Assembly (NCBI RefSeq): GCF_018873765.1
Contig: NC_057925.1
Coordinates: 49,674,010-49,738,009, forward strand
From: Telopea speciosissima
Taxonomy: Eukaryota > Streptophyta > Magnoliopsida > Proteales > Proteaceae
Direction: 5' to 3'
DNA: 64,000 nt
Shown: in pieces, positions 470-61,950 of the stretch
Layout: every line of letters starts with the position of its first letter
Position numbering within the stretch: position 1 is the stretch's first letter
The notes under the pieces: generated by a model
What the model was told of the DNA's origin: nothing
Databases searched by the model: none
The model's input: the letters and a program-made list of their open reading frames with translations, nothing else
Made by a program: the position numbers and the translations under genes

Positions 470-3400
470 GTCAATCCTTCTGATGTGATAATTTTGGAAG
501 GGATACTGCTTTTCCATGACACTCGTGTCCGAGAATTGATGAAAATGAAGATATTTGTTGATACAGGTTCTTTTGCTCCTTCCCTTTCAAGTAAATGGAT
601 GCTATTATATATTCTCCTAATTGCTAGGTTGACCTCATTGATTAGGGGCATAAGTTACGTAGTTTTACCTTTAGATCTTATACAATATACTGACTACAGA
701 CTGATTCAAATTGATTTTTTGAAACAACATTATTTTGTTGCTCTAGTACGATATTCATTCTGCATATAGTGGTGGTGGTGGAGGTTTTCGGTTTGTTTTT
801 CATATCGTTTTTTGTCTGATTGAAGTATGAATAATGTTATTATATTTTTTAATATTTCTATTAGTGTAGGGCTAGGCCAAAGATAACCTAATATACAGTA
901 GGATCGTAGGTATTAGCTAACAACCGGTTAATATGAGATTCCAGCAACACAATAACATGAAAAATTAAAGGAAAATAAAAGATAGAAGAAGATAGATTCG
1001 GGTTGAGCTTCTCACTCTTCCGTGGGCCTCTCAGCCTCTCATAGGTCTCTCACCTCACTGCATATCACAGCCATTAATGGTTGTAAACTGAACCAAACTC
1101 AGAATTTTCTCTAAATCGACTTGTCTTTGGATCAGCCTTTATTTATGATAATGCAATTACAACCTAAATCAATCTTCTAGAAATATCTCAGAAGAAAAGC
1201 AAACCAATCCCCAATTGGTTACAAACAATATAAGAAAAGCTTTCCTCTAAGCTCAGTTTTATTCGCCGCAGGCACTTTTTGGATATCCCAAGGAACAGAC
1301 ATATTGTTGTATCCTGGGTCTTGATTCATCTCTCTTGCAGTCTCCCACCTTCGTAGGTCGGGTTGCTTGTTCTTTGTTCCCCCCCCTCTTGGGGTTTGGT
1401 TATATATTTATTCACAAAAAAAAAAAATATAAGGACTCCTATTAAATAAGCAATTTAATAAACAAATAGAGATTTTCCTAAACTATTAAAACCCACATGC
1501 GAGCAACCAAAACTATTGTAATTAAAGTCCTAAACCAACTCGATTTACCTTGAGAGGAATCCTCCATGCATAGCCCTTTGGTCTTTTTGATCTCCAATAC
1601 AGCTGGCCATGGGACCCAGAAGATCTGGAAATAATCTCCTAAAAATCATCTCCACGCAAACAGCAACCTGAGGCCCAACAAATTGGAAGAAAATCTCCCA
1701 AATATTTTGGTTCAATGGGGGGGGGGGGGTTAGGGGGGATGAACCTAGCCAGGTTCTTGCTGATTTCTCTCAAACTCCTCCCTACAACTCAGTTGGTCGA
1801 GATGGCAGAATTCGATTCTCTTTAGGCTGACTCGACATCTATCCAAATCTGGAATATAACTTTGCTTGTCGATGGCATATCTTGGCAGAATCAATGGTTA
1901 ACCTGGGCAGAAATCAAGTGGATCAATAGCCCCAAAATAAGGGCCAGATTTGAACCTCCTTTGAAGCCTAGGCCTGCACTGCATCAATTCCCCACACTTA
2001 GAAAAAACTATACCACTAGTTTTGGTAAGTCAGGGACTAATCTTCACATAGTGCACGTACGTCTTCAGTCCGAAATATAATTAATGGCTGGCCATGGTAG
2101 GCTCTGATACCAAATAATGTAGGGTTAGGTCAAAGATAAACCAACCTACAGTAGGATTGTAGGTACCAGCTAAGAGCCTAAGAGCAGGTTGTTAATAACT
2201 TAATATGAGATTCCAGCAACACAATAACATGAAAAATTAAAACAAAATAAAAGATAGAAGAAGATAGATAGATTCGGGTTGAGTCTCTCACTCTTCCCTG
2301 GGCTTGTCACCCTTATAGGTCTCTCACCCAATGTTCTAAATCTCGGTTTCGAGGCCACTTTCGACCTTGGCCAAAACCGAGATTTCCCAGGTTTTGGTTG
2401 AAACCTGGTATTTTTTGGGCAAAACTCGAAATATCATGGGTTGGTCAAAACTAGTCGAAACTACTGAAATTGGTTAAAACTGGGCTGGTTGAAATTGGTT
2501 AAAATTGGTCGAAACTGGTCAAAATTATCAAAATGCCCGAAATATTGTTGAAACCTGGTCGATACAGTATTACATATGGGTTTCGACTGAGATCATGAAC
2601 CTTGCTCTCATCTTACGGCATCTCACAGCCATTAATGGTTGCAAGTTGAACCAAATTTAGAAATTTCTCTAAATCGACTAGGCTTTAGATCAGCCTTGTT
2701 CTTTATGTATAATAATGCAATTATAACCTAAATTAATTTTCTAGAAATATCTCAAAATAAAGGCAAACCCAATCCCCAATCAATTAACAATATAAGGAGT
2801 CGTATTACATAAGCAATCTAATAAACTAATAAACTTTCCTAAACTAATAAAATCCACACGCAAGAAACCAAAACTATCCTAAATAAACTCCTAAACCAAC
2901 TCGATTTGCCTTGGAAGGAATTCTCCATGTGCAGCCCTTTGGCCTTCAACTTGATCTCCAATACAGCTGGCCGTGGGGCCCAGCAGATCTGGAAATAATC
3001 TCCTAAAAATCATCTCCATGCAAATAGGAGCCTGGCGTCCTAATATATCTCCATGCAAACATCAGCATGGCCTCCTAATATATCTCCACGCAAGGTGGCT
3101 ATGGGGCCCACCAAATTGGAAGAAAATCTCCCAAATGTGTTGGTTCGATTTGGGGGGGGGGGGGGGGGAGGGATGAACCTGGACAAGTTCTTGCTGATTT
3201 CTTTCAAACTCCTCCCTACAACTCAGCTGGTTGATATGGCAGAATAGGCAGAATTCGATTCTCTTTTGGCTTATTTGACATCTATCCAAATCTGGAATAT
3301 AGCTCTGCTTGTCAATGGCATATCTTGGCAGAATCAATGGTTAAACCTGGGCAGAAATCGACTGGATCAATAGCGCTCCAAAATAAGGGCCAGACTTGAA

Positions 3401-6400
3401 CCTCCTTTGAAGCCCTATCATTGGGCCTGCACTGCATCATCTAGAAATTAGAATTCACTGGATGTTAATTGAACATGTCCACAGGATTTTTGATTGTTCT
3501 CTGAAGTTAAATGGGGTTTTCAAGCTTCCCAAGTAGTTGACCCCCTTTATTTTTGACAGCCAATGTTAAACTAATGCTTAGAAGCTTAGCTTCTTTCTTG
3601 TTTCTTCTTATGCTGAAGTTCTAGGTCAGTTTATAATGCGAAAGAAATTCTAGCTTTAGTACACTCATATAATCTAGAAAATGTCTTCAATATCATGACA
3701 CCTCATGGAAAGTTTTACAAGTTATTCAAGAAATTTACATCTAAGCAATTAGTCTTCTTAGGATGCTTGGCAGCTTGCAACTGTTAGGCCATACATGTGT
3801 ATATATTACCCAAAGCCTACCTACTCAACTCCAATTTGCCTTGTCCAGTTATTCCTGATGTTATTTACATGAATCTTGTTTCACCATTGCACACTATATT
3901 GGCCTTATTGTTTTCAACTCATGTTGAAAAAGCACACATAAATTACACATTTGACCCTGTTATCAAATAGTATGTTGTCTATGTTCGATTTTGATGTTAA
4001 AAACCATAGGGGGAGGCAGAAGGGTAGAAAATGTCATTCTGTGAACAGCTAAAAACTCCTGGAAAATTGTACAGATAAAAGTAGGAAGTGTAGCAGAAAA
4101 TGATGATAATGCATTGACTTTCCTGTTACTTCTGTCTGTTAATTTTACTAAATCAAATTTCTACTTGTACTGTTGACTGTTTACAGGCCATCAGGGTTCT
4201 TCTTACCTAAACTATCTGCAAAATTGTGTTTCTACAATGTTCTGTCTTTTATATATTTTTCATGCTGTCATGCAAAATCTGATCAATTATTCACTCCAAT
4301 TCATATGAAATATATGTTCTATTTGAAATTAGATTCAAACTATGTATTCCATTTTGTTTTGGTCCACTGTCTTCTTGTGTTAAGTTCTTACTTCTATTTT
4401 ATTCACAATGGAATTTTTTCAGTGCAGATGCTGATGTACGCTTGGCGAGGAGGATAAGACGTGATACTGTTGAAAAGGGCAGAGATATCAGAACAGTACT
4501 TGACCAAGTTAAGAAGTTCCCATTTGCTGTTTTGCGCATGGATTTCTCAATGGAATATGTTTTGAACTTTATTTTCTTTTTAGAACAATAGATTGAGTTG
4601 ATTAACTTTGGATCTGGTAGATAGTATTTTCGATGATTATATCTGCACCAGGAATGTTTTTTCAAATGGTGCCAACCTTGATTAAGATTTGAATATTGCA
4701 TATCTATTTTAGATAATTTAAGCTTGAAGAGTGGAAATCTTTCAGTTTTGTCTTGCTATTTGTCAACTTAAAGTTTATTACATCTTTCTTAAATAACTTT
4801 TTAATTTCTTATGCAGTACTCAAAGTTCGTGAAACCTGCTTTTGATGACTTTATTCTTCCAACTAAAAAGTATGCGGATATTATCATTCCCCGTGGAGGA
4901 GATAATCATGTGGCCATTGATTTGATTGTGCAACATATTCGGACGAAACTTGGTCAGCATGATCTCTGTAAAATATACCCAAATCTTTATGTCATCCAGT
5001 CAACTTTTCAGGTACTAATTTTGTTTCTATTTATTTACCTAGTTTTGTGTGTGTGTGTTTGATAAGTTCTTCTTCCTGATTTTTAATAGACTTTTAATGT
5101 CAATCCACAGTTTATTTATCTTCAGAGTTATTTTCTTTCTTATTTGCTTCGTGTAAGTTCCAGAAATTTTAACCAGCTTTGTACAGATACGTGGTATGCA
5201 TACGCTTATACGCGATGCTAAAACAACAAAGCATGATTTTGTGTTTTATGCTGATCGGTTGATTCGTTTGGTATGTCAAATTTACTGTAATATTGATTGA
5301 TTTGTTAGTGTTTTGTTGTCTTAATTGGATGTAAGGTCTTTTTTTTTCTTGGGTATGTTTGCTGATCTAGTAGTTTTCTCCATTGAGAGGTTGTTGAACA
5401 TGGCCTTGGGCATCTTCCTTTTACAGAAAAGCAGGTGATCACTCCAACTGGTAAGCTACTATTATTCTATGAATCTGCATTGGTACCATGTCTCTTAAAA
5501 TTTAAAATATTTATGTATTTTCGTAATATCTTATTTGGAGCAGATGAGGGTAATTTTATATCAACTACTTGATTTGCAGACATTTAATCTAGAGTTAGTT
5601 TTATTCCGACATGTTCTATCTTTTTTTCTGAAAATTATCATGCACTAACGAAAGAAGTCCTTGAGTATGGTTTCTAATGTTTGAAAATTTCCTTGGTATA
5701 AATGCAGAATCAGTTTATACTGGGGTTGATTTCTGTAAAAGGTTATGTGGTGTCTCGGTAATTAGAAGGTACATTTTTCTTTCTTCTTTCCAGTTTTAAT
5801 GTTCAGTTTTATGTGATGGTATCTGTTAGATTTGGGGAATTGAACTTATGTCAATGAGACACAAGCCCTCTTTATTTATAATAAACTCTATGAGATGCAA
5901 GTTATAGTTACACCCTTAGGGGCTTAGGGCAACACCAGCTAAACCCTAATGGACAAATATACCCTTGTTACCCATATTACAAGTTGACAACACTCTCCCT
6001 CAAGTTGGTGCATAGGTATCAATCATGCCCAACTTGCTAACAATAGAAACAAAATTCATACTACTTAGTCCCTTAGTAAATACATCAGCTAATTGACTAT
6101 CTTATGGGACAAATGGGATGCAAATAATTCCTTGCTCCAGCTTCTCCTTTATAAAGTGACGATCAATCTCAACATGCTTTGTTTGATCATGGCTGAATTA
6201 TGGGCAATGCTGATTGCTGATTTGCTGTCAGAGTATAGGCGCATAGGCAGCTCCACTGGGACTCCTAAATCCTGAAGTAACCCTTGAAGCCAGATTAGTT
6301 CACATATGCCATGAGCCATTGATGTAGATCGAAGCATGAAGAAGACAAAGGAAAAAAAGTTACTATTCACATGAACAGTACCTCACGACACTGTTCAAAC

Positions 6401-9400
6401 GACATTGTTCACTTGAACAGTGATTTGGGGGCTGATATCTACTGATACCCTTCAGATTAGTTTGAGATTGTAAGGGTTTTCATCCCTCAAGAAACGACTC
6501 ACCCTGCACAGTTTCGAGTTGAGATTTGACCTCTATTGGAAGTTCTTACCAGAACTTCAAATCTGGTAGCTGAGTTTTCTGCCAGTTCTGTTAAAAAAAA
6601 ATACTTGGTTTATGGAATTGAACTTGGTTGTTCTTAAGAACATAGTTCAAAAACTCATATTTCAGTCTCATTTCGGTCAGATTGAAATTAGCAAAATTTT
6701 GACCGAAATAGTGCATTTTTTCCGTGACCTACTCTTGGCCATTTTAGGGGGCAAATGGCTGAAATGATCGAAATTTTGACGAAAACAGTGCATTTTTGTG
6801 ATCAAAATTAGTGAGATTTTGACAAAATCCGCTTCCTATTTCATCTCGGGCATGTCAAAACTAGCGCAATTTCGTCGAGATTTTGGCGAAATTTTGAACT
6901 ATGCTCAAAAGACCTAGATGTCAGGGACCTACTACAATTTCAGTTGGATTGATCACATGTTGATTGAGTTCCACCGCTTGAACTTGAATTGGGTTTGAAC
7001 TATGCTCAAAAGACCTAGATGTTAGGGACCTACTACAATTTCAGTTGGATTGATCACGTGTTGAGTGAGTTCCACCGTTTGAACTTGAATTGGGTTTTTG
7101 CTGGCCTTTGGCTGCATGAGTTTGAAGACAACCTCACACATGGGTGTTATCTTAATTTTTTTATTTTGTTTTCCTAAGTTGGTCCTCCCCTTTTCTTGTA
7201 TTACCACTTATACCTTAAGTTTATTTCCCTTACAAGTTTGTCCATCATCACTAATTTTAATCCCTTTCTCATCCTTGTCCCATTGTTTTCTTAAGTAGGG
7301 TTTAAGATCCCCTTTAAATTACAAATCTGCCACTCTCATATAAGCTTCAACATATTTAGTTTCTTGCCACTAGAGTTTTGTTTTGGGTGATCTAACACTT
7401 GGGTGGCCCGGCCCCATAACGAACCCAAAATGGGTGTCCAGACCCTGGGATTGCATCATAGAGTGCCTTGTACCATATTCTGATAGCTGGGCTTGACCTA
7501 GCAATCAAACCATCTATAAGGGGAATGGCACCTTCGTAGTTGAATCTGACCACAAGATCACATCACTCAAAAACCCTAAGACAATACTGGTTTATTCTTA
7601 TGAGGTGGCTGCTGTTCTATGGACTCAGTTTTTAAGAAAAGTGGTATTAGATTTTTAAATATATATTTCCCTTTCAAACCTTAGATGTACATAAACATAA
7701 TTCTTGTTACTCTCTGATTACCCCAACAGAACTTGTTTAGCCTTTGCCCATCACAACGACCAAACTGCTAGTTGTCACTCCAATCCCTTACTGAGGATTG
7801 GAAAAGAAGAGCTTAGGAGGAGGAGGAGATGGAGCTCAGTGGATGCAAGTATGTGCTTGTAATTACTCCATCTCTGCCCCCTCTCTCTTGCTTGCTTGTG
7901 TTCTTGCTCTCACCTGCAATTAAGTTTTTCTTTTTTCTCTTTGAAACGTCTTTGTGGCTGCTTATCGTGACTGCTACAATATTGGATATGGTTGACCATT
8001 TCTTGTACAACGTAAAAGGAAAAGAAGGCCAGATCTTAATTGAGGCAATCTTTCATTGCTTTTCGATTTGCAAAACTTTAATCCTTCATTAAAGCAGAGG
8101 AGAACTTGTGGCTTAATTTGCATTTACTTATTTAATTACTGTATCTTAACTTTTTACAAAAGAACTGCATGCTTTTGAGCTTATGCATACAAGTTGCATT
8201 CTACTTAAATGGAAGGCTTCATATCATAGTGTTTGAAATAACTGATTTCCCCATTTTCTCCACTTAAATTAGAAGGCATTATACATCCCTCTTTTCTAAC
8301 TGAGCTATAGATCCTTTTTTGTAGCCTGTCTGTTGGCATAGTGTACTGGCCCTTTCTTTTCTTAAAAATTCTTGAATTAATAAAAAAGTATGATGCATTT
8401 CTATTGGAAAAAAAGAGAACCAAAAAAGGAAGTAGCAAGATAAATCATCCATAAACTAAGAAAAGATGCAAAGAATTTTAAGTTTGTGGCCTTGATGTGG
8501 ATTTGATTGTTTGACTTGTTTCATGTGAATCAAAGTCTTAGAGGGTTGCACAGAGAGGGGGAAGACACCCTCTGTATAGAACATAGTTATCAAGGTGTCG
8601 CCATGGCGTCCATGCTCCTTGGTCGCCTTGGATGCCTTGGGCGCCATGGCGGTGTCGCCTTGAATTTTGCCCCTCTAAAACGCCATGGTCTCTTTCCCGC
8701 CTTGATAACTATGGTATAGAAAGTTTATGCTGAGTTTGCATAAATTTGAATCTAGCCTACGAGGAGCTTAAATAGCCGAGTATTCAATAGGATTTCCATG
8801 GGTAATATCTCAGGTTCCTTCAAACATTAAAGGAGCCATTACCCAGTGTTGGTCTCTCCTATGTGGGGTCCTAGGAGGGATGAGTTTTGAATTGGTCCTA
8901 ACCTTTAGCAGCCGCCCTCAAGACTCGAACATGAATCCCTCTTCGGTTTCTGCTTAAGAGATGATTTATCTATTCGAAGTGAGTGGGAAGAGTGTCTTGT
9001 AAGAACTAACCAAAGAGTCCTCTACTTAACTAGCCACTCCAAACTTAATGTCAATTATCGAGTTCTTCTCTTGTCATACTTGAATCTTGAATGGTCTGTT
9101 TAAGTTGTCTGAGGGTGTTTTCATTGACAGTTTTATTTCCTAACTGTTATAGTGGTGAAAGTATGGAGAATGCTCTGCGAGCATGTTGTAAAGGCATCAA
9201 GATTGGGAAGATTCTTATTCACAGGGAAGGCGACAATGGGCAGCAGGTCTGCATGGAGCTCCTAGAATATTCTTTTTCATTCTTCCTTTCACCTTTTCTC
9301 ACCTGCTTTTCTGATGTTTGAAATATTCTCCAGTTAATCTATGAAAAACTGCCGAATGATATTTCCGATAGGCATGTGCTACTCTTGGATCCTATCCTCG

Positions 9401-12806: not shown

Positions 12807-12918
12807 GTATGAGAACGTATGAGAACAGCTCACAGTTGTCAAGATGGAATCCACCCCATGTGGGTCTCAGAGGGTGGATTCCATCTTGACAGCTATGAGC
12901 CGTTTTGGTATGTTCACG
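12807..12918. repeat. Foldback (hairpin) element
   Basis: The arm GTCAAGATGGAATCCACCC (about 12838-12856) is followed after a 15-base loop by its inverse GGGTGGATTCCATCTTGAC. Weaker complementarity extends outward (GAACAGCTCA against TGAGCCGTTTT). A short MITE is likely; no clear target duplication was found. Confidence 0.6.
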
Positions 12919-19290: not shown

Positions 19291-19725
19291 TAGGGATGTA
19301 AACGGATCGGATTCGGATCGGATACGGATCAAATGTGATCGGAGCCGGATATTCCCTGGCCGAATACGAATACCTCTAAACGGATTAGGATGCGGATCGG
19401 ATTCGGATTTTCGACCATCCGTTTACATATCTGCCTTGTGTAACCCGGACCTTCCTCCCCCTAGCGGATACAATTCTCTCTCAATCCATATCTCTTAGAT
19501 CATGATTCTCTTTTCATCATATTCTAGAACTTGTTTAATCTTCAAAAACCCTAAAAATCATTATTTACTTAATTTTTTATTATTAAGTATTCGGATTTTT
19601 TTCGGACGGATTTTAATCGGAATATTCGGATTTTTTTCCGGATATCTCTAAATGAATACGGATGCCCCTAAACGAATACGGATGCGAATTCGAATTCGAA
19701 TTTCGGTTATCCATTTACATCCCTA
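19291..19725. mobile_element. hAT-like iterated-core element with perfect 8-bp duplication
   Basis: Termini TAGGGATGTAAACGGAT and, inverted, ATCCATTTACATCCCTA. Flanked by GTGTCATC on both sides (19283-19290, 19726-19733). The body repeats CGGATTCGGAT / ATCCGAATCCG. The terminus resembles that of maize Ac (CAGGGATGAAA) and carries the AAACGG hexamer that Ac transposase is known to bind. No ORF of note. Confidence 0.88.
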
Positions 19726-35608: not shown

Positions 35609-38600
35609 TAGGGGTGTCAATCGGTCGGGTCTAGTCAGGCTTCACCAATTTTACAGGCTGCACCATGTCCGATTGTTTAGGCATTCAGGCTTGCCTTAGA
35701 CGGACATGGTACGGTTTGATTTTGGTCGATCGGTGTTCGGTCTTTAATCAGGGCAGCCTTATTCGAGGTAAACGTGTTACACCCGCACCCCGGATCATAA
35801 TTAATTATTATTTCTTCCCCGTGACGTGTGGTTATCACTGCCACGTATGCTGGTGAGCTGTTCTCGCTGGTGGTCAAACCCAGCTACAAAATTATTGACC
35901 ACAGTGCGGGTTTACCTGTGGAGGAAACTATTCGGGGTCACGGGGGACAAACCATGACAAGGAAATAGTAAGTTCTAGCCCTTAAGGTTATTTATTTACC
36001 CTTTCTCTTGATGCCCTCGAAGTACGGGTCAAGATTTGGACAGCCCGGGCTATTTTAGTTGAGTTGGGAATATTCCATTTGTGGGTTCCACTTATTTAAG
36101 GGAGCGTGTGATGGGCTTATAATCCCATGGTGGATGGACCCATCCCCAAGTGGGTTCTTTTCTATTTGAAACCTGTGGGCAGGCCCATTTAGTTAAGAGG
36201 CCCATTTGACTCTATTTGACCCATTTAACTTAGAGTACCCATTTAACTTGGGTGACCCATTTAACTTAAACTACCCATTTAGCCTAATGACCTATTTATC
36301 TTGGATCCACCCATTTAACTCTTGACCCATTTAACTTAAACTATCCATTTAGCTATTTGACCCATTTAACTTAGAGGATCCAAGGTCCATTTTCTTTAAA
36401 TAAGACAAAAGGGGGGGGAGAAGCATTCATTTCATTTCTTCTCCCATCTAACCTAAATCGTGGAGGAGAGAAAGAGGAGAGAAAGGAGAAAGAAGAAAGA
36501 AGAAAGAAGGAAGGAGAGAAGGAGAAAGAAGGGTGGAGAAACTTGGTTGGAGGTTGGAAGAGCACTTCTTGGAGCCTCAACATGGAGCCTTCTATATTGG
36601 GGGTAGGTAAGTCATTCAAACCCACATCTCTTCATCTATTTTGATTTTTGAGGTTTGGGAAATGGGAGAAATTCAACCTAGGGTTCTCTTGGAACCCAAG
36701 GAATCGATGGAACCTCTAAACCTAGACTATGGTGGAGTTATTTCACTCCATTACAAGCCCTAAGCCTAAGTAATCTCTTTCCATTTAAGAAATTTAAGGT
36801 TTCTACCATATTATGTCCTAATTTAGGTTCTCTTTGTTTTCTCTTAAATCCATGGGATTACATGGACCTAATGAGGTCTTAGAACCCTAATGGACCTAGG
36901 AGGAAGTTTTTTTGAAGCCTCCCTACCTTTAAACCCCTTGGAAAATGAATCCCTAGTGAGAAACCCTTCAATTTTCGGTTCTGCGGTATGTGGTTTTACA
37001 CTCGGATTCGTTTTAAACCACATCTGCATCCGACCTTGACTAAAACTATCCTAAGCCCCTGGTTAGCTAGGATTTACATGTGGTTTCGCACTGCAAGAAA
37101 CCACCCCGAAATTACCTCCCGAAAAGGCCCCTGTGAAGCTCGGATTTACACTCGGATTCGGCCAAACCACATCTCGCATCCGACCTTGACTAAAAGCGTC
37201 CCGGGCCCCTGGTTTTCTAGGATTTACACTCGGATTGTTTTCAAACCACATCTGCATCCGACCTTGACTAAAAGCGTCCGGGCCCCGGGTTTCCTAGGAT
37301 TTACATGTGTTGCGGAATTTGGGCATGAAACCACTCCTGCAACCACTCTACTTCTGAAACCTTATACTTAAATGATTTATGGGAGACCTTTTGGGGATCC
37401 GTCCCTTTACTTAATTAACCATATTTTCACTCTTTATTTAGGTTTAAAGTTTTCATCTTGTGACGTGTTACTTGATTTCGGCGACAACTCATAACATCGG
37501 GGCATAACACATATTGTGAGTGGGTTTGGTTGTTTGGGCTTGATATTATTATTGCATTGTATATTATGTCATCATTATAAATTATTAAGCATGCTTGCGC
37601 ATATTGCATATTTTTATATATGAATGTTATGATGTTGATTGGTAATGTTGTACCTTGATGGGTCTCGGTGCCGGTGGGTATCGTGTTGGAACCCCGAACA
37701 CTATATACATTTATGAAAAAATTATGTTGAATGTCATGTTGAATGTATGCGCCGCCGTGCTGGTAACGGAGCACTAAACCGGATGAAAAGTTGATGCGCC
37801 CGGATTACCTCTCGGGACGATAGGACTTGCATGTAGTGTGGCTAGGATTTTACACCCTTATGCTACGACCCTTACCAACAAGGGGTTTAGGTGTTGGGTA
37901 ATCGACATCGGATTCGTGGAGGTGGGAGAGGCCGATCATGGTAGTATTGGTTATCGGGGTCCGCCACTGAGTGGTCTTGGAGGCTTCGATCGGCGTAGGT
38001 CCCAGGTGACAATTGAGGTTTCATTGTGGCGATAAGTTAAGTGACCCACAATGTCTCCCGAGTTGTCACAGTAGCATATGCCATTGACTTAGTTGTGATG
38101 TTAGGTGGAAAATTTACTTAACATATGCATGCATCATTGGACTATGTGAATTGTGTGTTTGTGCATCCCCATCCCCTCACTGGCTCAGTGGAGAGCTAAC
38201 CCCCTCGTGTACACAATTTTTAGATTATGATGCAGGTACGGAGGAGCCGGAAGCTGTGTTAGAGGAACATGGCAACGGGTGTCCTTGTGACGATTGCGCC
38301 TACGGGCCGTGAGAATTCTAGGGACTTGTTCCCCTTTTGTTTATTTTAGGGCGTAGGCCCATGTATAAACATTTACTGTTATACCCTTGTTGATCATTAT
38401 TAGATGGTAATGAAAAATGGATTAACTACAGTATTTATCATCTAGGCTTTGATCATCTTGTAATTATTGATTTTATACGCTTCCGCAAAACTACTGATCA
38501 TTTGGAATGTAATATTTCCCTTTCCGCACTCTGATATTATATTGTTTTAATATTAGTTATGACTGTGCGTTGGGACACTGTGTCAGTGATCCTGGCAGCT

Positions 38601-39321
38601 TAGTAGGATGACAAACGTCGTCCTAGTCACCCCTTATAATGTATTTTATCCCTTGTTGGGATGGGGGCGTGACAAAACGGGCCTAAATCGGGTCCAAAAC
38701 GGGATAATGAGCCGTTTAACTCTAAACGATCTCTAAATGGTGTGGGTTTACTAATTGATATGCAACCAGAATTTTAAGTTCAAACCATCACACCGTTGGG
38801 CAGTCACGGTACACTTCAACTAAAAGTCAAATAAAGTTTATCCCAACTAAAATAGTAACACAATACTGAATAGAAGTATATCTAATAAAGTAAGTAGAGG
38901 GAAAAAAAATAGCAGCACAACACCGAATAGAAGGTACATCTAACTAAGTAAGTAAAGGAAAAAATTTGCAGCACAACACCGAAAGTAAGATCTAAAAATT
39001 AAAAAATAAGTCTCATTTCACCTATGTTAGTGTATCTAATCAATAAATGTCAAAGACCAACAAAGAGACAAACAAAAACAGAAAATTTGGAGGGAAGGGG
39101 AGGGGAAGTTTATAAGTTAAAAGGGTCGGGCTATAACCAGTCGGTCTAGGTTGAGCTTGGAATCGATCGGTCCAATCGGGCACCCAACAGGCTAGGACCC
39201 CACACCGAGACCTCCAGATTATTAAGCGTGTCGGGCTTAGTAATCGAGCTGGGCTGGGCTGGGCTTTAACCGTGCGGGCTCGGTCAGGCCTACCGGGCCG
39301 GGTCTGGAATTGACACCCCTA
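35609..39321. mobile_element. hAT-like element interrupted by a solo LTR
   Basis: Termini TAGGGGTGTCAATCGG and, inverted, ATTGACACCCCTA. Flanks TCTTCAAG (35601-35608) and TCTTCGAG (39322-39329) match at 7 of 8. Without the nested LTR the element is about 0.8 kb. Its own sequence repeats CGGTCGGGCT / GGCCGGGTC motifs near both ends, with an AT-rich middle around 38750-39100. No transposase was recognised. Confidence 0.8.
35775..38674. mobile_element. Solo LTR of 2.9 kb with perfect 5-bp target duplication
   Basis: Begins TGTTACACCCGCACCCC and ends GGGATGGGGGCGTGACA. AAACG flanks both sides (35770-35774, 38675-38679). No primer-binding site, polypurine tract or reverse transcriptase was seen. 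The LTR contains two internal repeat zones: TTTAACTTA/GACCCATTTA words at 36180-36375, and an about 80-150 bp unit (CACATCTGCATCCGACCTTG) at 36990-37320. The ends are of the Ty3-gypsy style. It sits inside the hAT-like element 35609-39321 and is therefore younger. Confidence 0.85.
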
Positions 39322-40011: not shown

Positions 40012-40251
40012 CATGGTTTGAGGTATTGGTATCGGGTTGCCAGATACAACTGATACTATAGGGTTTTAAAGGTGATCAATACCACATCGATGAAATGGTA
40101 TAAACAAGGGGTAAAATAGTCAAAAATATCGTTTTAAGTAAAATCAAAAGTAAACTTGTCCAATATTACTGATCTGTACCGATACTGTATCGATATCATA
40201 TTGGTTTTGAAAGTCCTGAAACCTGATCTAATATTGTGCACTATAACCGCG
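40012..40251. mobile_element. hAT-like MITE with perfect 8-bp duplication
   Basis: Left end CATGGTTTGAGGTATTGG; the inverted right end reads CGCGGTTATAGTGCAC. Flanked by GGAGACAT on both sides (40004-40011, 40252-40259). The body carries GATACTGTATCGATATC and related words. Same family as 15362-15603. Confidence 0.85.
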
Positions 40252-41339: not shown

Positions 41340-42260
41340 GTAAGGGTGTCAAAATCAAATTGAAACCGTTTACTGAAATCCGGTTGAACCGTTTTAATAA
41401 AAACTATGAAATAGTTTAAGAAATGGTTCGATTATGGTTTTAAAATTAAGATCTTTTAATTAAACGGTTTAAATCGGTCTAGACCATATAATCGTAATAG
41501 ACCGTTTAATACTCTTAGATGTACATAAATTAAGGGTGTCAAAACCAAACCGAAATCGAACCAAACCGTTTAAACCAAAATCGGCAGTCCGTTTAGTTAA
41601 ATGGTCTGGTATGGTTTTAGAAATGACATCATTTATTTAATCGGTTTGGTTCGATTTAGACCGATTAATTCAATGATTTCAAACCGTATAATTCAATTAA
41701 AACCGATTATAACCAAACCGTCTAACTGTTTAAAAACCTACCAACTTTTTTTTTATTTTATAAACAAAAAATCAAAACCTAGTGAGTAGCAACTACTAAG
41801 TAGTCACGTTTCTTCATTAATGATTTTCTTTCTCAAAAAATAAATAAATAATAACTTAGTAAGTAATAAGTAATAACTAGTATTAGTAAATAGAGTAGTA
41901 AATGTGTATAGAACCGTCTAACCGAAATCGTGTAAAATCATATAGAACCATTTAATCGAAACCATTTAAAAACCGTTTAACCAAAATCGTTTACTAAACG
42001 GTTCAGGTATTGATTATGAGCCCGTTTAATTAAATGGTCTGGTTACAGTTTCTACCCCCAAGCAATCAAAACGAATTGAACCGAACCGTTTAATCAAAAC
42101 CGGACCGTTTAACCCCCTTAACATAAATATACCAAACTGAAACTGAACCAAATGGTTTAAACTGAAACCGTTTAGTAAATGATTCGATTATGATTTCAAA
42201 ATTGAGACCATTTAATTAAACTGTTTAACTAAAATCAGACCGTTTAATACGCTTAGGCAT
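41340..42260. repeat. Dense AAACGGTTT iterated array, hAT-like
   Basis: Starts TAAGGGTGTCAAAATC (about 41342), restarts at 41532 with TAAGGGTGTCAAAACC, and has right-end-like ACCCCCTTA near 42120 and ACGCTTAGG near 42250. The body is filled with AAACGGTTT / AACCGTTTAA on both strands, interrupted by an AT-rich piece at 41740-41900. Two or three nested or tandem copies are likely. AAACGG is the hexamer bound by Ac transposase in maize. Confidence 0.6.
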
Positions 42261-44400: not shown

Positions 44401-44483
44401 GCATTTGCATCCGGTTAGCTATCCTCGAACATATTTCATTTCTAATATGCAAGAGATCCCGCATTGTATTGGTGGACCATTGA

Positions 44484-44693
44484 CACGGTTTCAAGAATCG
44501 AGAATTGGATCGATAGATCGACTGATTCGGACTGGAATTGACTGTGACCGATCCCCATTCTGGCCGATTCGATATGACCGATTCATGGACCAAACTCCTA
44601 GAATCGTCGAGTTCAGATTTGAGGGCTGATTCTAAAGTTTTTCGGGACTGATTCCGGCGGACAGATCCGATCTCCGATGTTTTTTGGACCTTG
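44484..44693. mobile_element. hAT-like MITE inserted in BMT5-like copy 1
   Basis: Ends CACGGTTTCAAGAATCGAG and, inverted, CAAGGTCCAAAAAACATCGG. Flanked by ACCATTGA on both sides (44476-44483, 44694-44701). The intact gene shows a single ACCATTGATGATC at the matching place, giving an empty site. The body repeats GATCGA / GACCGATTC words. Confidence 0.92.
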
Positions 44694-50789: not shown

Positions 50790-51228
50790 GCCTTTAGAGC
50801 TTGCATGCGTGTGTTGACCAATGGGAGCACATACGCAAGCATCACCATGGGTGTGATTTCCGCCTTTCTATGAGGCCAAGAGCCACCTCCTTTTAATTGC
50901 CGTTGTTTTATTTCCAAAAGTTATTTAATGCAAGGGTAAGAAAGTATTTTTAAAAGCTGAAAATCATTTTAATGTATGGGAAAAGGTTCTCGGAGCCTAA
51001 GACGTAAAAAGAAGTATTAAAATAACTATGTGAGAAAGTATAGAGTATCCTATTTGCTCATTGTCTTTCTTAATGTATTTTTTTATATGAAATAATAGTA
51101 ATTCTAGTCATTAGAGAAAAAAAAAAAGTATATTATACTAACTGACAAAAAGATTAGATTAAAATTTCTGCAACTTAAGAGGTGTTTATTTTTTTTTCGA
51201 ATAAAAACTTAAGGATTTTTAAATTTTA
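50790..51228. other. Intergenic DNA
   Basis: No gene. Contains GCATGCGTGTGTTGACCAATGG-type sequence, distantly like the dispersed repeat near 60535. Confidence 0.35.
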
Positions 51229-51390
51229 GGAAAAAAAACTTTGTCGGGGAGTGTGGCCTATGCCAACACTCCCATGAGTTTACCTCTATGCTCCCATATG
51301 AAATGACAGCTTTTCTTCCTTATTGGGAGAAGAGAGGTAGACATGAAAGTGTTGGCGTAGGCCACACTACCAGATTAAAAACTCCTTCCC
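51229..51390. mobile_element. Mutator-like MITE, second family member
   Basis: 162-bp inverted repeat with AGTGTGGCCTATGCCAACAC and its inverse GTGTTGGCGTAGGCCACAC. Flanks TAAATTTTA (51220-51228) and TAAATTTAA (51391-51399) match at 8 of 9. Same family as 28515-28687. Confidence 0.82.
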
Positions 51391-51399
51391 TAAATTTAA

Positions 51400-52196
51400 A
51401 TAATAAACAAATAATAATAATGACCCTAGACCCAAGGTGTTACATTTTCGATCGTGAAAACTTTTGAGGGAGATATTTACCAAAAAAAAAAAAGAATTTT
51501 TTTGAGGTAGATCATTTTACGAGGGGCGAAATTTTGCTGCTATATTTGTAACAGGAACAAGGTTGGCGGCAGCCAAGGAAATGGGATCTTAAAGGGTATT
51601 GTAGAAAATATTAAAACCTAAGAGGATATTTATGAACCTGAAGGAAAATGAATTATTCCATTTCCTTGGCTGCTAGCCTTGTAGTAGAAACATTCCTACT
51701 ACTCAAGTGTAACAGCAAAATTTTTTCCATGCTACAGATTACATCCAACGTCTGGAACACGTATCCCAAACGCTGCCCTGTCCAGATCCGGGTCGAAAAT
51801 AGACGCACTGAGAAAGCTTTTTGTAAGAATCATGCACAGATTCCATCCCATAAATCACAGACGCGCTTTCTCCCCATTAAATGCCGCTAGGCCCGCTACA
51901 CTACATACGAAGCGTTTCCTACTTTCCTCAGGTCAAGTGTACAAATCAATTTCACTTTTTTTTTTTTTTTTTTTTGGGTATTAAATTTCACTTTACTTTC
52001 TAAATTCCTTTTACTTGCAGCATACGTAACCATAATCGAACACTACTGTTGCCTCTCCTAGTACCCTCAATTGAGCTCCTCCATGCTCTGTAGTCTGTAA
52101 CTCCGTTGTCTCTTTTTCTCGTTTATTGGATTCTTCACGGAAAAAGGAGGAACTACCGAAGTAAGTTCTAAGGAGCCAAAAAAGGTAGAAACATCA
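51400..52196. other. Upstream region of the intact BMT5-like gene
   Basis: An imperfect inverted pair (GGCGGCAGCCAAGGAAATGG near 51563; CCATTTCCTTGGCTGCTAGCC near 51659) suggests another foldback MITE over about 51500-51730. A T run lies at 51958-51976. The leader GGAACTACCGAAGTAAG (52150) is shared with copies 1 and 2. Confidence 0.45.
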
Positions 52197-55100
52197 ATGG
52201 CGGAGGTGGTCGAGGGAGCATCATCAGTGGCGGAAGAAATATGTAGCAGTAGTAGATGGTTGAAATACTACTCCTCCTTTCATCAAATCCTCTTAGTCGG
52301 AGACGGAGACTTCTCTTTCGCATTGTGTTTGGCTCAGTCATTCGGTTCTGCTTCTAACATCGTCGCTACGTCTCTCGACTCTTATGGTACTCTTCTCTCT
52401 CTCGATTGCTGATTCCTATTTCACGATCCGTCACTGTTTTTATAATCAAAATCAATTTGGATTAATGGGGTAAATGGGTTTTCTTTCTGGTTAATAAATT
52501 CGTCGTTGGTTTCTTAGATGACTTTGTACAGGTTTTGAAACTATGGATCGTATCTGCTCCTCCTCTGTTCAATACTAAGATCAAAACTATGAAACTTTTG
52601 CATCCTTATCTTGGAAAAATTCGAAAAAGCCCTCCAATTAAACTCCAAAGCTTTAAAAAGAAATATTCTTTTGCATTCTCTTTATTATTAATATTTCTCT
52701 GTAGTTCTTGATTTTGTTTTTCCTTGGAATAATCAAAATGACTTACTCAATTACCAGATTCTGTGATCCTCAAGTACAAGAAAGCAAAATTGAATTTGGA
52801 AAACTTAAAGAAACTGAGAGCAGCCCTTCTGCACAAAGTAGATGCTACCAAAATGAAACTTCACACTGACCTGAAAATTCGGAAATTTGATCGGATAATC
52901 TTTAACTTCCCTCACGCTGGCTTCCATGGGAAGGAAGATCAAGTCCGTATGATCAAGTAAGCATCATTCATAACTATAATTATCTCATTCAATAATTCAC
53001 GAAATTCCAAATTTTTTGTTTGGTTGCTAGGAATTATTTACCATTCCCTTCAGTTTAACTATCCAATTTCCTTATTGTGGTCTCTTATTCTTATATTTCT
53101 GTACATTGCAAGGTACTAAAACTCGGGTCTCGGTATCAACTTGGCCCTTGGAAAAATCGAGTCTAGTCGAGATCTCGCCGAGTTGGTGCATTTTTTTTTT
53201 TCCGACTCGAAGCCTCAACTCGGTGGGTTTTAGACCTAATTTGGGTCTGAAACTTGATGTTCAACATATTTTAGGCCATTTAAACACAATGACACTATCA
53301 GATTTTGCAAAAACAAAGTCCAAATATGAGTTTCAATTCGGACCATAGGTTGGTAGGCGATGACGTACTAAAATACCCTACTCTACACATAATTTAGTAA
53401 TAGAAAGCAAGCAAAACATTCAATTAATAGCTAAACAACTTAAATAAGAATTAGAAATGTTAAAGTGATACATCAAACTATTTAACAGTGTTACAACTAT
53501 CATCACATAAAATGACTTTGGATCAATTATTCAGTCCCCGACTCCCCGCTAGTGTCACATGGTCTTCCCATGACATAGTGTTGCTGTAATATTGCATAGT
53601 ACTCCACAGCAAGCATATAAGAATTCTGTCGAGTTAGGTAAGTAAATACATAGTAGATGGCTCATTTTCATTGGTCAACCCGAGATCTCGACCCGAGATC
53701 CGAGATCTCGTCGAGATATGTCGAGTTAGGTAAGTAAATACATAGTAAATGAGTCATTTCCATGGGCCAACCCGAGATCTCGACCCAAGATCCGAGATCT
53801 CGCCGAGATCTTGTATTATTTTGTATTGTATCCCATCTCGTCTCGGTTTCTCAAAAAATCGAGAAACTGGCCCAGATCTCGAACTATGGTACATTGTATT
53901 ATGACCATGTGTTATTGCATTATTTTTCCATTTTCATGCCATGTCACAATAATATCATTTTTTGTTCATATGGTATATAAACTAATATGTTTCCATGTTT
54001 GGTATATTTCTGAACAAGCTCAACTGACTTGGATTCTTTAGAAAATATGCTTGTTTGTGCATAGAGGTTCATTCTTGCACTTTCATGCACTTTGCTCGAA
54101 ATTTCTTTTATTCAGTTGTAAATGCTTTTCTTGAATTTTTGAGGCCTCAGTTTCATATATTGTTCATGGAATCATATTGTTAAAATGGGGACTAAATGTA
54201 TGCGTGTATGCTTCATTGACATTCTGAAATTTTTTTTTTCACCAAGAGAAAAAAAAAAAAAAAACATTCTGAATTTTTTTTGATTACTTGAATGCTTACG
54301 TATAAGCAGGCGCAGGGGAAACATATTGATTCATGCGTAGAACAACTAGTAACATATTAATGTCAAACTGTAAGTCCTAACTAAGAAATAGTCACTAGTT
54401 TTCATGATAAAAAATGGATGAATTATAAATGAGATTCTTCTTAAAAGTTGTCGCTGAGGTTGAAAATTAGTGTTGTCAACGGGCTGGGCCGAGTTGGCCC
54501 TAAGCCCTAGCCTAACCCTAGGAGCTTTAACCTAAACCCAAGCTCAGCCCGATCCTCCCAAGGCCAAGCATACCTTCAACCCAGCCCGACCTTGGCAGGG
54601 TATTTCCAAGCCCGGCCTGGCCGTGATTGACCCTGATTGATACCCCTAGATTTGTTGTTAGGGTGCTTCTCCTTGTACTGCTTCCTGAACCCTTCCCTTG
54701 ATTTCCAAACAGGGGAAAAAAGAAGACAAAATCGAAGCGGATAGGAGAAAAAGGAACCAAAACAATACTAAAATTAACTCTAATAATAAAAAGTATTGAC
54801 AGCAATGTAAAAAAAATCAGATCTATTAAAGAACAAACAGAGACTTTTTACATGAACAAACAAATATATATTTATTGGCAGTTCTATTATTCTCATAAAT
54901 AAATGGTTCATTGATCTCATGATAGAGACCAATGTAGCAACACTTGATCTCAACCACAGCAGCAGTTTGCAGTTGGTAACAGAAAGAATAAAAGGCAACT
55001 AGTGAATAGTTGGAAAAATGAAAAGTGCCCCCAGAAATAAAAAAGATGCCTTCGTATGAGTGATCACGACTTTTGGTTGATATGTAGCTTTATTCGATGT

Positions 55101-57238
55101 TTGAAGTTCCAGGGGGATTGTCTCTCTTTTGGTCAATAGATAAGTTTTTCTTCTTTCATTAACGGGATTTATTTTAATAGTTTGATTAGAGTCATATCTT
55201 GAGTTAGTTTATGTTACCTTATTGGTTAAGGATTGGGTTAGGTCATGCATTTTTAGTATTTGTTTCTGTTTTTGAGTCTTCTATGTAAGTTTGTAAGGGG
55301 CTACAGCCTTTTATACGAATTTGATTAATGAGATTTTGGCTTGAGCCTCTTAGACGACCCCATTAGGTTGGGATAAGGCTGATTTTGTTGTTGTTTGTTG
55401 GCTTGAACCTATTCTTTAATTCTATGAGACTCAGATATGGTGGGATACCATTAATGGCTGGTGGAATTCCAGTCAAGGCTAGCTGGGATGCTTAGTCATA
55501 TCTTCTTCTTCTTCCTTTTTATACTTTGTTTTTCTGTCTATTTCAGCCTAGTTTGATTTTTTAATTAAATCTGATTTCGTAACCTGTTCAGCCCCAACTT
55601 TTGGGACATTAAAGAGCATCCCCTAGGTGACCATCAACGTTTGTTTGTTGGGTATCAGATCAATATCTTGTTTGCTATCTGAAATCACCCAAAACCTACG
55701 AATTTTCGATTCCAGAATTTTGGTTTTCAAACTTACTTTTAATCCATCTTTTGGATCGTTAGGGCTTTGCTTTAAATTACTAAGATTGAGGTCTGACCAA
55801 ATTTCAGTTCAATCTGTTGGTTGGATTGAATTTAATTTGAGTTTTACAGTTCCTGAGGTCTCTGCCCGTGAGATCGTTGTTTCTCAAATTACTCCCAAAC
55901 CACTCATCGGATTATCCTCATCTTTAAAGGGGTTCTTATCCTTCCTATCAACTATTGTTTCCTAGAGTTTGGTGTTATTTTGAAGGATTTGTGTTTTCAG
56001 TCAATTTTCAGGATTCTATCTGAGTGGTTTTTTTAACTTGGGATCCTATCTGTGAGGGTTTGAGTGTTCTTCCACCCCCACCCCCACCCCCCACTAAGAA
56101 GGCTTTATAATGGAATCTAAACAATTTCAAAAAGTATGAAACCTAAATACAACTTTTTATTAGTTTGATGTGAACTATAAAATCATGTCTTAACATTTAT
56201 TATTTCTCTTAGCCATGTATGATCGATCTTTTGGTGTATCAATTGATTTACTGGCTACAAAAGGAAATTATTGAAAATGAAAAATTGAAGATTGAGGATG
56301 GTTTATTTGATAGTTGAGGATGGAGAAATTGTTTTTATGATTGTGAATAGATTAGAGAACATATTTAAACCATTAGGAACTAATTTACAAAAAAAAAGGT
56401 TTAAAATTTGGTAAAAGAGGCTGGTTGTTCATACTAATGAAATGAACTTAGTGCTTTATACAGGATGCACAGGAATTTGTTGCAAGGATTTTTCAGGAAT
56501 GCAAAGGGTATGCTTCGGCCCTTTGGTGAGATTCATGTAAACCACAAGACTAGTGGCCCATTTTGCCATTGGAATCTTGAAGAACTTGCTAGCAAGAACT
56601 CGCTAGAATTGATTGAGTGTGCTGAGTTCAAGATAAATGATTACCCTGGTTATAACAATAAGAAAGGAGATGGACCAAGATGTGATGAACCCTTCCCTTT
56701 AGGGAAATGCAATACCTTTAAGTTCATCATCTCCCGCAGCAATAGGAGTAGAGAAACTATGGGTGTGATGGGGGGCTTAGGTGGTAATTATAATAGCAGT
56801 GGGGGATTGCCCCAAATTCAAGAAATGCCGCTTCAAATTCCTTATAATCGCAGTGGGTTGTCTCAAATTCAAGAGATGCCCCTTCAAATAGCTCATACTT
56901 TGCAATCACAGCCAGTTGGTTGTCCTCGAACAGAATTCATGTTTAATATGCAAGAGATCTCCGGTTGTGTTGGTGCACCATTGATGATCGGAATGCGAAA
57001 TGAATTTGAGAGAATATTTGATGGCTATTTTGTAGAGGCTAATGCAATGTTCGGAAGAACTGATTATGATTATGCACAAGTAGCGCAGCAAAAGATAAGG
57101 GAAGGTTTTGTGAGATACATGTCTGGAGCACCAGGTAAGACTGTGAATGGTTTCATACCCTATATTGAAGCACTTCACCATTCGAGTAAGTGGAGATTGG
57201 ACTGGCTGCAAAGATTGCTACTAAACAGTCATCCCTAA
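52197..57238 (+). CDS. BMT5-like (DUF2431) rRNA uridine methyltransferase-domain protein
   Basis: Exons 52197-52386, 52758-52956 and 56464-57238 join in frame (phases 1, 2) into 387 residues. The DUF2431 domain covers about residues 25-225: LLVGDGDFSFALCLAQSFG is the SAM-binding glycine motif, FDRIIFNFPHAGFHGKEDQ the central motif, and MLRPFGEIHVNHKTSGPF the late strand. A low-complexity linker follows (LPQIQEMPLQ twice) and then a plant-specific C-terminal helix region ending SKWRLDWLQRLLL. In yeast the homologue Bmt5 makes 3-methyluridine in 25S rRNA; plant members are uncharacterised. Intron 2 is 3.5 kb and holds a hAT-like element. All codons conserved in family motifs are present, so this is the functional member of the local cluster. 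Confidence 0.92.
53109..53888. mobile_element. hAT-like iterated-core element with perfect 8-bp duplication
   Basis: 780 bp. Ends CAAGGTACTAAAACTCGGG and, inverted, CATAGTTCGAGATCTGGG. Flanked by GTACATTG on both sides (53101-53108, 53889-53896). Both end regions repeat GAGATCTCGACCCGAGATC words; the middle (53260-53620) is AT-rich unique sequence. No transposase seen. It lies in intron 2 of the intact BMT5-like gene. Confidence 0.87.
54475..54665. repeat. Decayed iterated-core repeat
   Basis: Runs from TTGTCAACGGGCTGGGCC to CTGATTGATACCCCTA, with GGCCCTAAGCCCTAGCC-type words between. Likely a decayed hAT-type element of the GGGTGTCAA kind. In intron 2 of the intact BMT5-like gene. Confidence 0.5.
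55340..55400 (+). mobile_element. Possible RTE-type non-LTR retrotransposon 3' end
   Basis: GACCCCATTAGGTTGGGATA followed by AGGCTGATTTTGTTGTTG resembles the 3' ends of plant RTE LINEs and their SINE partners, which finish in TTG repeats. No upstream coding part was recognised. Confidence 0.35.
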
Positions 57239-58707
57239 CCCCTTTGGGCTAGAGATGGATCAAAACATGGTTTCTTGTTTCTTTTTGTGGCGTATTTATA
57301 TATATATATAGGATGTATGGAGTTCTTTTACGGTACTGTATGTTTCTCCCAGTTCCATGCTCCTTGCAGACTTTTAATACTACAACGAATCTCTGGAATT
57401 TTATGGAGTAAATGAACTTAAAGAAGAAATGCCAATCCCTATTGTATATTTCTTTAGTCTCTCTCAAATAATGTTAAATAAAGTGGTATAACTCAATGGT
57501 ATATGAAGACACATCTAAAGTTTCAGATAACCTATGTGAGGGACCTCTATAACTCCCAACATCTCAACGCTAAAACTAATCCTTCGTAGGAGGATTGACG
57601 GTATCTTAATTGTTTGCGTTATTTGTTATTATAATGAGATGGTTTCCTATTAATACTTGAGAATTGCAAGTCTTATCTGTTGAACACACAGTACAGATGG
57701 CAGTGTCTGTGTGTTGGTTGTCATTGTTGTCAACACAGTGCATGTGTTGTTGTTGTTGTTGTCAAGACAATACATTGTGGTGCAGACAGTGATTGGATAG
57801 AGTCACAACATCCCCAGTAGTTCTTATAGTGTTCATAGTGGTAGTGACATCATTACAGGGGTTTGGCAGTGTATACAAAAGTCTCATGGTGTTTTGGAGT
57901 CATCTAAGGGCATTTTTGTCATTTTTAAGCATAGACAACATTATATGGGTATTTTTATAATTTTATAGAGTACTGATGGCCTAAAGAGATGAAAGTCAGC
58001 ACAGAAGAGTGTTTTGGTGATTATGTCAGTCACAGAGGTCAATGGAGTGTTGATTCAACTCAAAGGGGCATTTTTATCATTTAATGGTGATGTGACATGT
58101 CGACAGTGATGCAGTAGCATCTGTGTTTATGTGGCAACATATGACACTTTACCTCAGCTTTTAACAGTTCTTGTAAGCCTTAAACAGCTTTGGGTGAAGG
58201 TTAGATGCATTAAGAATGTTGATTTTATAGGTATCCACATTGATAGCATGTTTATTGGTATTTTTTTAGGTGTAACGGTAGAATTGGGCGGAACAATCTA
58301 TATGAATATTTACAGAAATTTTAAAGAGCTTGAGTCTTGAATCTTAAGCTAATTTTACAACAATCGATAGCAAGAGGAAGAGAGAGAAGAAAGAGAGAAG
58401 GGAGACAACAAATAGAAAGAGTTTTCTACTCCTATTCTGAAGACATTTTTGAGTTTTTTTTTAGGCAGTGACGTTGGTGATTGAACCCTTGCTGCTTGCC
58501 ACGCTATTGAAGAAATGCTCAAGAATTGAGGCAGAATTAAAAACTGAATTGAGAAAAAATGTTGGGCTTTACGCTGCTTAATTAGATGGGAATTGAAGGG
58601 ACAAAATGAAGTCAAAACACAAACATTAATATTGGGTTTGGACGATTTTTTTTTGTTAAGTTTGGTGACAAAACAAAGACTATTTATACATTTTTCCCCT
58701 CATCTAC
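57239..58707. other. 3' flank of the BMT5-like gene and intergenic DNA
   Basis: Begins with the 3' UTR (TTTCTTGTTTCTTTTTGTGG, shared with copies 1 and 2). A GTT/GTC-rich stretch lies at 57705-57770. No gene recognised. Confidence 0.4.
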
Positions 58708-60323: not shown

Positions 60324-60364
60324 TGGGGGGGGGGGGGGGGAGAGAGAGAGAGAGAGAGAGAGAG
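60324..60364 (+). repeat. Poly-G / (GA)n microsatellite
   Basis: A G run passes into about eleven GA units. Confidence 0.9.
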
Positions 60365-61801: not shown

Positions 61802-61874
61802 CCAATACCCATTGTATTCGATACGATACCGATATCAATGCTGAACCAACCAATATCTAATACCTAAAACCATG
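61802..61874. mobile_element. Deleted hAT-like MITE of the TCGGTATCG family
   Basis: Only 73 bp. The right end CCTAAAACCATG is the family terminus and the body has GATACGATACCGATATC. Flanks AATAGATA (61794-61801) and AATAGACA (61875-61882) match at 7 of 8. The left terminus is eroded. Confidence 0.6.
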
Positions 61875-61950
61875 AATAGACAAGAGATAATCAAAAGAAG
61901 ATTACAACTTTCTTTTTTTAGGTTGAGCTCGATATTTTTAGATATCTGAA

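Follow-up and report, generated by a model that had tools for sequence, protein, structure and literature searches.

The 64 kb of Telopea speciosissima DNA analysed here (positions 49,674,010 to 49,738,009 of contig NC_057925.1, hereafter the window) contains a series of short elements rich in short, CG-containing words on both strands, raising the question of what such elements are and how they came to be filled with repeats. The surrounding assembly is 823 Mb in size, and the contigs encountered include eleven of 57-88 Mb. The initial annotation listed nine elements, assigned them to the hAT transposons, described them as built almost wholly from one motif each and proposed that subterminal binding repeats had expanded to form the whole element. 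Our analysis indicates that the window elements are very probably non-autonomous hAT miniature inverted-repeat transposable elements (MITEs) of several co-resident families, each made up largely of the paired subterminal zones of a full-length hAT element, with words that are most likely transposase binding sites. Two hAT branches are represented: an Ac-type, with TA[AG]GG[GA]TG termini (here TAGGGATGTAA or TAGGGGTGTCAA) and words built on CGG, and a DUF659-type, with NNNNCG words and termini close to CANNGTT, which is near the CAATGTT terminus of Arabidopsis Tag1.

Insertion with an 8-bp target duplication is demonstrated in the window, the elements of which are referred to below by their start positions (Table 1). 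The 8-mers flanking the nine listed elements were as originally described, five pairs being perfect and four having one mismatch; among random intervals in the window, 0.006% had perfect 8-mers and 0.08% matched with no more than one mismatch. Eight of the nine duplications are credible. The ninth candidate, 61802, was rejected as a complete element owing to its missing terminus and a duplication not above chance, since two left positions within 400 bp score equally and a flank score like this one occurs at least once at 24% of random places as well. Among 122 pairs of exact CANNGTT...AACNNTG termini, three had adjacent 8-mers matching at up to one mismatch, compared with zero in each of 13 displaced controls. 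With looser termini, perfect duplications were in excess (five, against a control mean of 0.75 and control values of up to 4), one of the five being 45664-46563, the termini of which match poorly; the one-mismatch class (21, against a mean of 14.3 and values of up to 24) was not clearly above chance, hence one-mismatch duplications alone are weak evidence.

Two of the insertions can be compared with their empty sites. The segments 862-1054 and 1047-1234, in a tandem paralogue lacking the 2329 element, align to the two sides of that element and have precisely the 8-bp target in common, whilst 56858-56984 and 56977-57191 align to the two sides of the 44484 element, again overlapping by 8 bp. The interval 35609-39321, originally treated as a single element, has a hAT part of only 808 bp, the remainder being a nested insert with its own 5-bp duplication that, judging from its sequence, looks like a long terminal repeat (LTR)-type element or solo LTR. 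The element at 41531 had not been delimited previously, and sits within older material of a like kind extending over approximately 41341-42251, as judged by eye.

Table 1. Transposable elements, empty target sites and duplicated regions in the window.
Position	Feature	Termini; words	Duplication or target	Remarks
862-1986 and 2115-3439	Tandem duplication, ~1.2 kb			79-85% identity; empty hAT site preserved
1047..1054	Single 8-bp target, empty site		CTCTCACC	Tandem paralogue without 2329-2604
2329..2604	Non-autonomous hAT element	CAATGTT/CAAGGTT; GTTTCG/TCGAAA-type	CTCTCACC/CTCTCATC	
6641..6903	Further element	CATAGTTCAAAA; ATTTCG	8-bp duplication looked for at flanks, not found	
8582..8713	132-bp MITE	CATAGTTATCAAGG; AAGGCG/ATGGCG (GGCGCCATGG)	GTATAGAA	Partner L031/L032
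15362..15603	hAT MITE	CATGGTTTTAG/CATGGTTCTAAG; GTATCG		Non-word middle shared in family
19291..19725	Ac-type element	TAGGGATGTAAA; CGGAT	GTGTCATC	Termini and words in common with L024
26609..26894	Second copy of 15362 family, reverse		8-bp duplication looked for at flanks, none found	
26940-27053	Decayed fragment of 15362 family			
35609..39321	Ac-type element, 808 bp	TAGGGGTGTCAAT		Later split by insert
35775..38674	Nested insert, 2,900 bp, not hAT-like	TG...CA; TGTTACACCC...GGGGCGTGACA	AAACG (5 bp)	
40012..40251	Third copy of 15362 family, more diverged		GGAGACAT	
41531..42120	AAACCG/AAACGG-word element	TAAGGGTGTCAAAA / TAAGGGGGTTAAAC	ACATAAAT (perfect)	
42869-45163 and 52255-57431	BMT5-like gene region, duplicated			Domain shown in two copies; related DNA at 48488-48810
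44484..44693	hAT element		ACCATTGA	Within open frame of BMT5-like gene copy
53109..53888	hAT element, 780 bp	CGAGAT (as CGAGATCTCG)	GTACATTG	
56977..56984	Single 8-bp target, empty site		ACCATTGA	Paralogous BMT5-like copy (56441-57238)
61802..61874	Ninth listed element	Terminus at one end only		

Searches of the genome DNA, in which the best 40 candidates were scored per family, gave 1453 first-look candidates for the 8582 family, 1359 for 15362, 391 for 2329 and 49 for 44484, the last being rarer than the other families searched. All 40 scored copies of the 8582 family were near full length. Twenty of its 39 other scored copies, and 20 of 42 other matches to the 15362 family, were fetched; these were the best-scoring copies with a full-length alignment, some with trimmed ends being passed over. 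At fixed boundaries, 14 of the 8582 copies had perfect 8-bp duplications, five had one mismatch and one failed, its flanks having a common 7-mer one base out of register, whilst the 15362 copies comprised six perfect cases, eight with one mismatch, two with two mismatches and four failures. Hence 19/20 and 14/20 copies (33/40 together) carry a duplication at no more than one mismatch, as against 1/380 and 0/380 cross-paired controls, respectively, bearing out for both families the expectation that flanking 8-mers would be more alike than random. Only a length of 8 worked when duplications of 5-11 bp were tried on the genome copies. Both families fit the traits of MITEs, being short, non-coding and dispersed in numerous copies with fixed ends.

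Full-length relatives were sought through hAT domains, yielding 1799 first-look candidates for Dimer_Tnp_hAT and 2699 for DUF659, of which 150 per domain were scored. Nine of 20 fetched Dimer_Tnp_hAT loci contain a full element whose 8-bp duplication is perfect and which has a terminus of the TA[AG]GG[GA]TG type on at least one side, and four more have the termini and a duplication with one or two mismatches. All eight DUF659 loci fetched from the 150 scored, a selection made partly on open-frame length, are full elements, seven having a perfect duplication and one (L031) a single mismatch. Pairs without recognised hAT termini, attributable to chance, and nested word-on-word pairs were excluded from these counts. 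Of the resulting 17 full-length elements, labelled by locus below, ten entered a word-sharing comparison and 12 a CpG table. Together with the 8-bp duplications and empty sites, the hAT transposase domains of these relatives uphold the hAT assignment. L024 encodes Dimer_Tnp_hAT and hAT-like RNase-H domains; DUF659 is found in L029, L031, L032, L033 and L035, with Dimer_Tnp_hAT in a second frame of L033; and zf-BED scores above the cut-off in L032 and L011, and just below it in L029, L014 and L019. The partner set therefore includes a BED finger, RNase-H and hAT dimerisation domains, although Pfam recognised the full trio in no single frame and the finger scores are low. In an alignment of the fingers of four proteins, the C, C, H and C residues are invariant. 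A predicted model of the L032 protein, of low confidence (mean predicted local distance difference test score 56.7), gave nine PDB matches at E values up to 0.001, all of them Hermes transposase; a PDB sequence search with the DUF659 alignment returned nothing convincing. At L031:1307-1438, around 650 bp from the full-length L031 element, which has the same termini, there is a further copy (90%) of the 8582 MITE.

Counterparts of all four core words named in the initial annotation exist in full-length hAT elements, in a family-specific manner and partly as half-words or variants: CGGATTCGGAT corresponds to the subterminal words of L024; GAGATCTCG to L029/L030, as halves only (CGAGAT and the variant ATTTCG); GGCGCCATGG to L031/L032, mainly as AAGGCG/ATGGCG; and TCGGTATCG to L033-L036, mainly as GTATCG. 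An absence of full-length hAT elements sharing the core words, which would have told against the initial interpretation, was therefore not observed. Element by element, the end words are GTATCG/CGATAC in L033 and L035, with the same word identified by position in L034 and L036; ATTTCG and ATCTCG in L029/L030; AAGGCG in L031; and ATGGCG in L032. In the Ac-type branch they are ATCCGA in L024, AAACCG in L019, CGGTAC in L014, and ACCCTG with CCGACC in L011. These 6-mers are concentrated at the ends, with end and inner counts of 32 and 0 for CGATAC, 19 and 0 for ATTTCG, 15 and 2 for ATCCGA, 13 and 0 for AAACCG, 9 and 1 for AAGGCG, and 8 and 2 for ATGGCG. In nine full-length elements, the words are almost entirely confined to the terminal 100-300 bp, extending around 100 bp on one side and 200-300 bp on the other; the exceptions are a few out to 450 bp in L033-L036, and L024, both ends of which reach around 200 bp. 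CCG/CGG is the most end-enriched trinucleotide in all four Ac-type elements tabulated (6.9-22 fold).

Word sharing between 11 window pieces and ten full-length elements was scored against dinucleotide-preserving shuffles, such that CpG richness alone cannot produce the z scores. The strongest were 8582 with L031 (11.3) and L032 (5.6), 26609 with L035 (6.6) and L033 (6.2), 19291 with L024 (5.8), and 53109 with L030 (5.1) and L029 (4.9), coinciding with agreeing or related termini: those of 8582 are common to L031/L032 and those of 19291 to L024, whilst those of 53109 and L029 are similar. The partner of 41531 is ambiguous (z of 4.9 with L019 and 4.2 with L014); a further candidate, L027, was discarded, its left end having 0.156 of 7-mers in common with 41531 compared with 0.165 for another piece of the same locus. 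That locus has an Ac-type end with ACGGTA/ATACCG words at L027:3006-3405, and a CpG-rich stretch at approximately 8000-8250 that may be the other end, in which a terminus was not found.

A number of observations weigh against the overall reading. The end value of 41531 with L019 (0.17) is close to that of an internal control (0.14), and 53109 also reaches a z of 4.3 with L032. Matches are modest for 15362 (2.7 and 3.9 with L033 and L035), 40012 (3.0 and 2.6 with the same elements, the ends of L033 giving 0.20 and an internal piece of it 0.17) and 2329 (3.5 and 2.5 with L029 and L030), whilst 44484 (top z of 1.2) and both parts of 35609 (2.1) have no word-sharing partner among the ten elements, and the termini of 44484 are unmatched among the full-length elements compared. 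The palindrome GAGATCTC is absent from L029/L030, the matches to which rest on half-words, whilst L031 contains GGCGCC a single time and L032 lacks it. The L033-L036 terminus CAAGGATTTAAG is related, not identical, to CATGGTT of the TCGGTATCG family, which these elements therefore may not mobilise. The 8582 element aligns to L031/L032 over the outer 27-41 bp only, and hence is not a plain deletion copy of either. Finally, L024, L031 and L033 have no zf-BED match at an E value of 0.001, nor does L035, the open frame of which begins within the finger.

The description of each body as almost wholly one motif did not survive measurement. One 6-bp word covers 0.20-0.33 of the 8582 and 15362 consensuses when exact and 0.42-0.52 at one mismatch (shuffled means are up to 0.08), and 0.10-0.20 and 0.31-0.47, respectively, of the window copies of these families. 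The longest word-free gap in the 15362 family is 79 bp; the four word forms counted are all absent from a 509-bp stretch of 53109 and from a 127-bp stretch of 19291. Nor is a palindromic arrangement the common principle: CGAGATCTCG in 53109 and CGCCATGGCG in 8582 are palindromic, but most neighbouring words are in tandem in L034-L036 and L024/19291, the arrangement in L029/L030 being mixed.

The alternative that the binding repeats multiplied until they filled the small elements, which would then be expanded arrays instead of leftover ends, is best judged from word density. Small elements have 2.1-7.6 words per 100 bp, whereas full-length ends have 1-10 in their outermost 100 bp and as many as 12 in the 100 bp that follow; by family, the density is similar to or under that of the full-length ends in three and above it in one. 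As these values are comparable, expansion is not generally needed. The CGGAT and TCGAR small elements, at 2.1-4.1 per 100 bp, are sparser than full-length ends are over their outermost 100 bp (5-10), and the GTATCG family, at 5.6 in the consensus and 2.8 in 26609, is similar to or below its full-length range of 3-9. Furthermore, a non-word middle is retained across the 15362 family, and 53109 and 19291 are collinear with parts of their partners' ends, the former in part with the left end of L029. The case for expansion is confined to 8582, in which words number 6.1-7.6 per 100 bp whereas the L031/L032 ends have 1-4 in their outermost 100 bp, and to 53109, in which a 92-bp internal tandem duplication (53627-53809) carries words. 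On these densities we reject expanded arrays as a general rule, and we regard expansion as an unlikely origin of these elements. Two ends lacking the coding middle are the simplest reading of the sequences, with 8582 possibly reflecting local growth or an unsampled partner.

If the words are not transposase sites, they might instead attract host proteins or marks, such as CpG methylation or transcription and silencing factors. CpG dinucleotides do make up 3.7-8.7% of the ends as against 0.9-2.0% of the interior in 12/12 full-length elements examined, and in two families the CpG positions of the copies have changed at 2.3-4 times the rate of other positions, which may account for old window copies with CG turned to TG or CA. 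However, the words differ by family and are tied to each family's own transposase, a pattern for which a host factor shared by all families fails to account, and the equivalent CG-containing words of Ac bind transposase (PMC1978519, PMC3260210); this reading is accordingly improbable, slightly more so than expansion. That the repeats are immobile minisatellites or chance motif-rich DNA, an idea to which the words on both strands and the loose one-mismatch scan lend some colour, is next to inconceivable given the empty sites, the 33 duplications among 40 fetched copies and the dispersed copies with fixed boundaries, and is refuted for the families tested.

Leftover hAT ends would arise through joining of the subterminal zones of a full-length element with the coding middle left out. 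The BED-like zinc finger at the N-terminus of the family's transposase would most likely bind the words, and the abundance of sites along each end would allow a multimeric transposase to locate the ends, cut at the short termini and paste the element into an 8-bp staggered target. The matching full-length families are the probable source of the activity that moved the copies, and different words would correspond to different specificities.

Linkage between finger and terminus was assessed using lists of 150 fingers of each type, 60 of the 150 L033 and L029 fingers being compared for L031 termini. An L033-type finger lies within 5 kb of 32/36 exact L033-type termini and 19/64 listed one-mismatch termini; an L029-type finger of 52/97 exact L029-type termini; and an L031-type finger of 10/37 L031-type termini at no more than one mismatch, and 5/63 of those listed with two mismatches. 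Approximately 0.2% of random places are near a finger. No listed finger of the wrong type was found near termini of any of the three types, exact ones in the case of the L029 type; for L033-type termini this covers the listed L029-type fingers and, for the exact ones, L031-type fingers as well. This shows each family to be a unit of terminus and finger, from which it does not follow that the finger dictates the word; the linkage holds within copies of each family and hence lends no independent support to a code. All five pairs whose words differ show lower similarity in the finger region (29-41%) than in DUF659 (40-61%), whereas in the one pair with near-identical words, L031/L032, the finger is 70% and DUF659 66% alike. 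The tracking of word difference by finger divergence is suggestive, three families being too few for a code. We tentatively propose that the DUF659-type word comprises a fixed CG and a four-base family flank (GTAT-CG, ATTT-CG/ATCT-CG or AAGG-CG/ATGG-CG) read by the BED-like finger, the helix start of which shifts with the word (GGVTRQKEH, GGATRLKQH and GIKRLKQH), and that their changing together may have given rise, within one plant genome, to mutually exclusive hAT systems that each possess miniatures of their own.

Subterminal words are read by the hAT transposases of Ac, Tag1, Herves, Tol2 and Hermes (PMC3260210, PMC3143072, PMC10368747). Ac binds AAACGG and A/TCGG (PMC3260210, PMC1978519), its words centring on ACG, TCG and A/TCGG (PMC1978519), with 25 and 20 copies in its two ends in the Ac/Ds papers. 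The elements described here resemble Ac/Ds in their 8-bp duplications, short termini and CG-containing subterminal words on both strands, and in that non-autonomous members keep the words around other filler; they differ in their word flanks and termini, and in the presence of several families side by side. AAACGG or A/TCGG is found near the ends, and AAACGG in 41531-42120. That hexamer had been reported from 41340-42260 and from both ends of 19291; it occurs in the former and in the left end of the latter, the right end of which reads AAATGG. Rice Dart/nDart is similar in having non-autonomous hAT elements with the termini and similar subtermini of a putative full-length mother element (PMC4423477). 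The Hermes BED finger reads short subterminal repeats (PMC10368747), and the predicted L032 model shares its hAT transposase fold; Hermes is an insect element, though, with the word AAG(T/C), which lacks CG. Herves, also from insects, binds CGATTCAT (PMC3143072), which likewise begins with CG. Tag1 has short subterminal binding words, quoted as AAACCC and TGACCC in PMC3143072, but these are not words of the DUF659-type families here, in which the end-enriched words are GTATCG, ATTTCG/ATCTCG and AAGGCG/ATGGCG. TGACCC, the published right-end word of Tag1, is among the end words of the Ac-type family comprising L011 and its relatives (L009, L010, L020, L022 and L028), the termini of which differ in type from those of Tag1.

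Elsewhere in the window, Pfam identifies fructose-bisphosphate aldolase, phosphofructokinase and BMT5-like frames, the last displacing an earlier DCD-domain identity for the paralogue gene. One BMT5-like copy contains, in addition to the 44484 insertion, around five 102-bp tandem repeats (43893-44390) inside its open frame, which terminates within the 44484 element. Around four 107-bp tandem repeats (18811-19213) lie immediately to the left of the 19291 element. A decayed CGGAT-word element resembling the L024 ends is present at 29137-29747, with a right terminus at 29747 and no flanking duplication found. Four sequences (12813-12915, 34412-34572, 35144-35290 and 51218-51400) align with their own reverse complement at 72-78% and are, on this evidence, probably other kinds of inverted-repeat miniature element.

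As Ac/Ds and Dart/nDart already exemplify the principle, the window elements represent new families and not a new principle. Its operation across many families was unstated in the titles and abstract openings of the literature searched, most subscription journals lying outside that scope, and a survey of 207 plant genomes for MITEs takes the terminal repeat as the binding site, the word 'subterminal' being absent from its main text (PMC12550479). What is newer is that one genome harbours several families whose CG-containing words differ, and that a finger-to-word code may exist. A single genome supplies several hAT families with different words and candidate reading fingers, its natural copies recording the ends that were accepted. 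The rule by which BED fingers read DNA, which the papers cited here describe for only a few hAT elements, could thereby be tested through finger and word swaps. For annotation, it is useful that word-rich repeats of this kind can be accounted for as ordinary leftover transposon ends.

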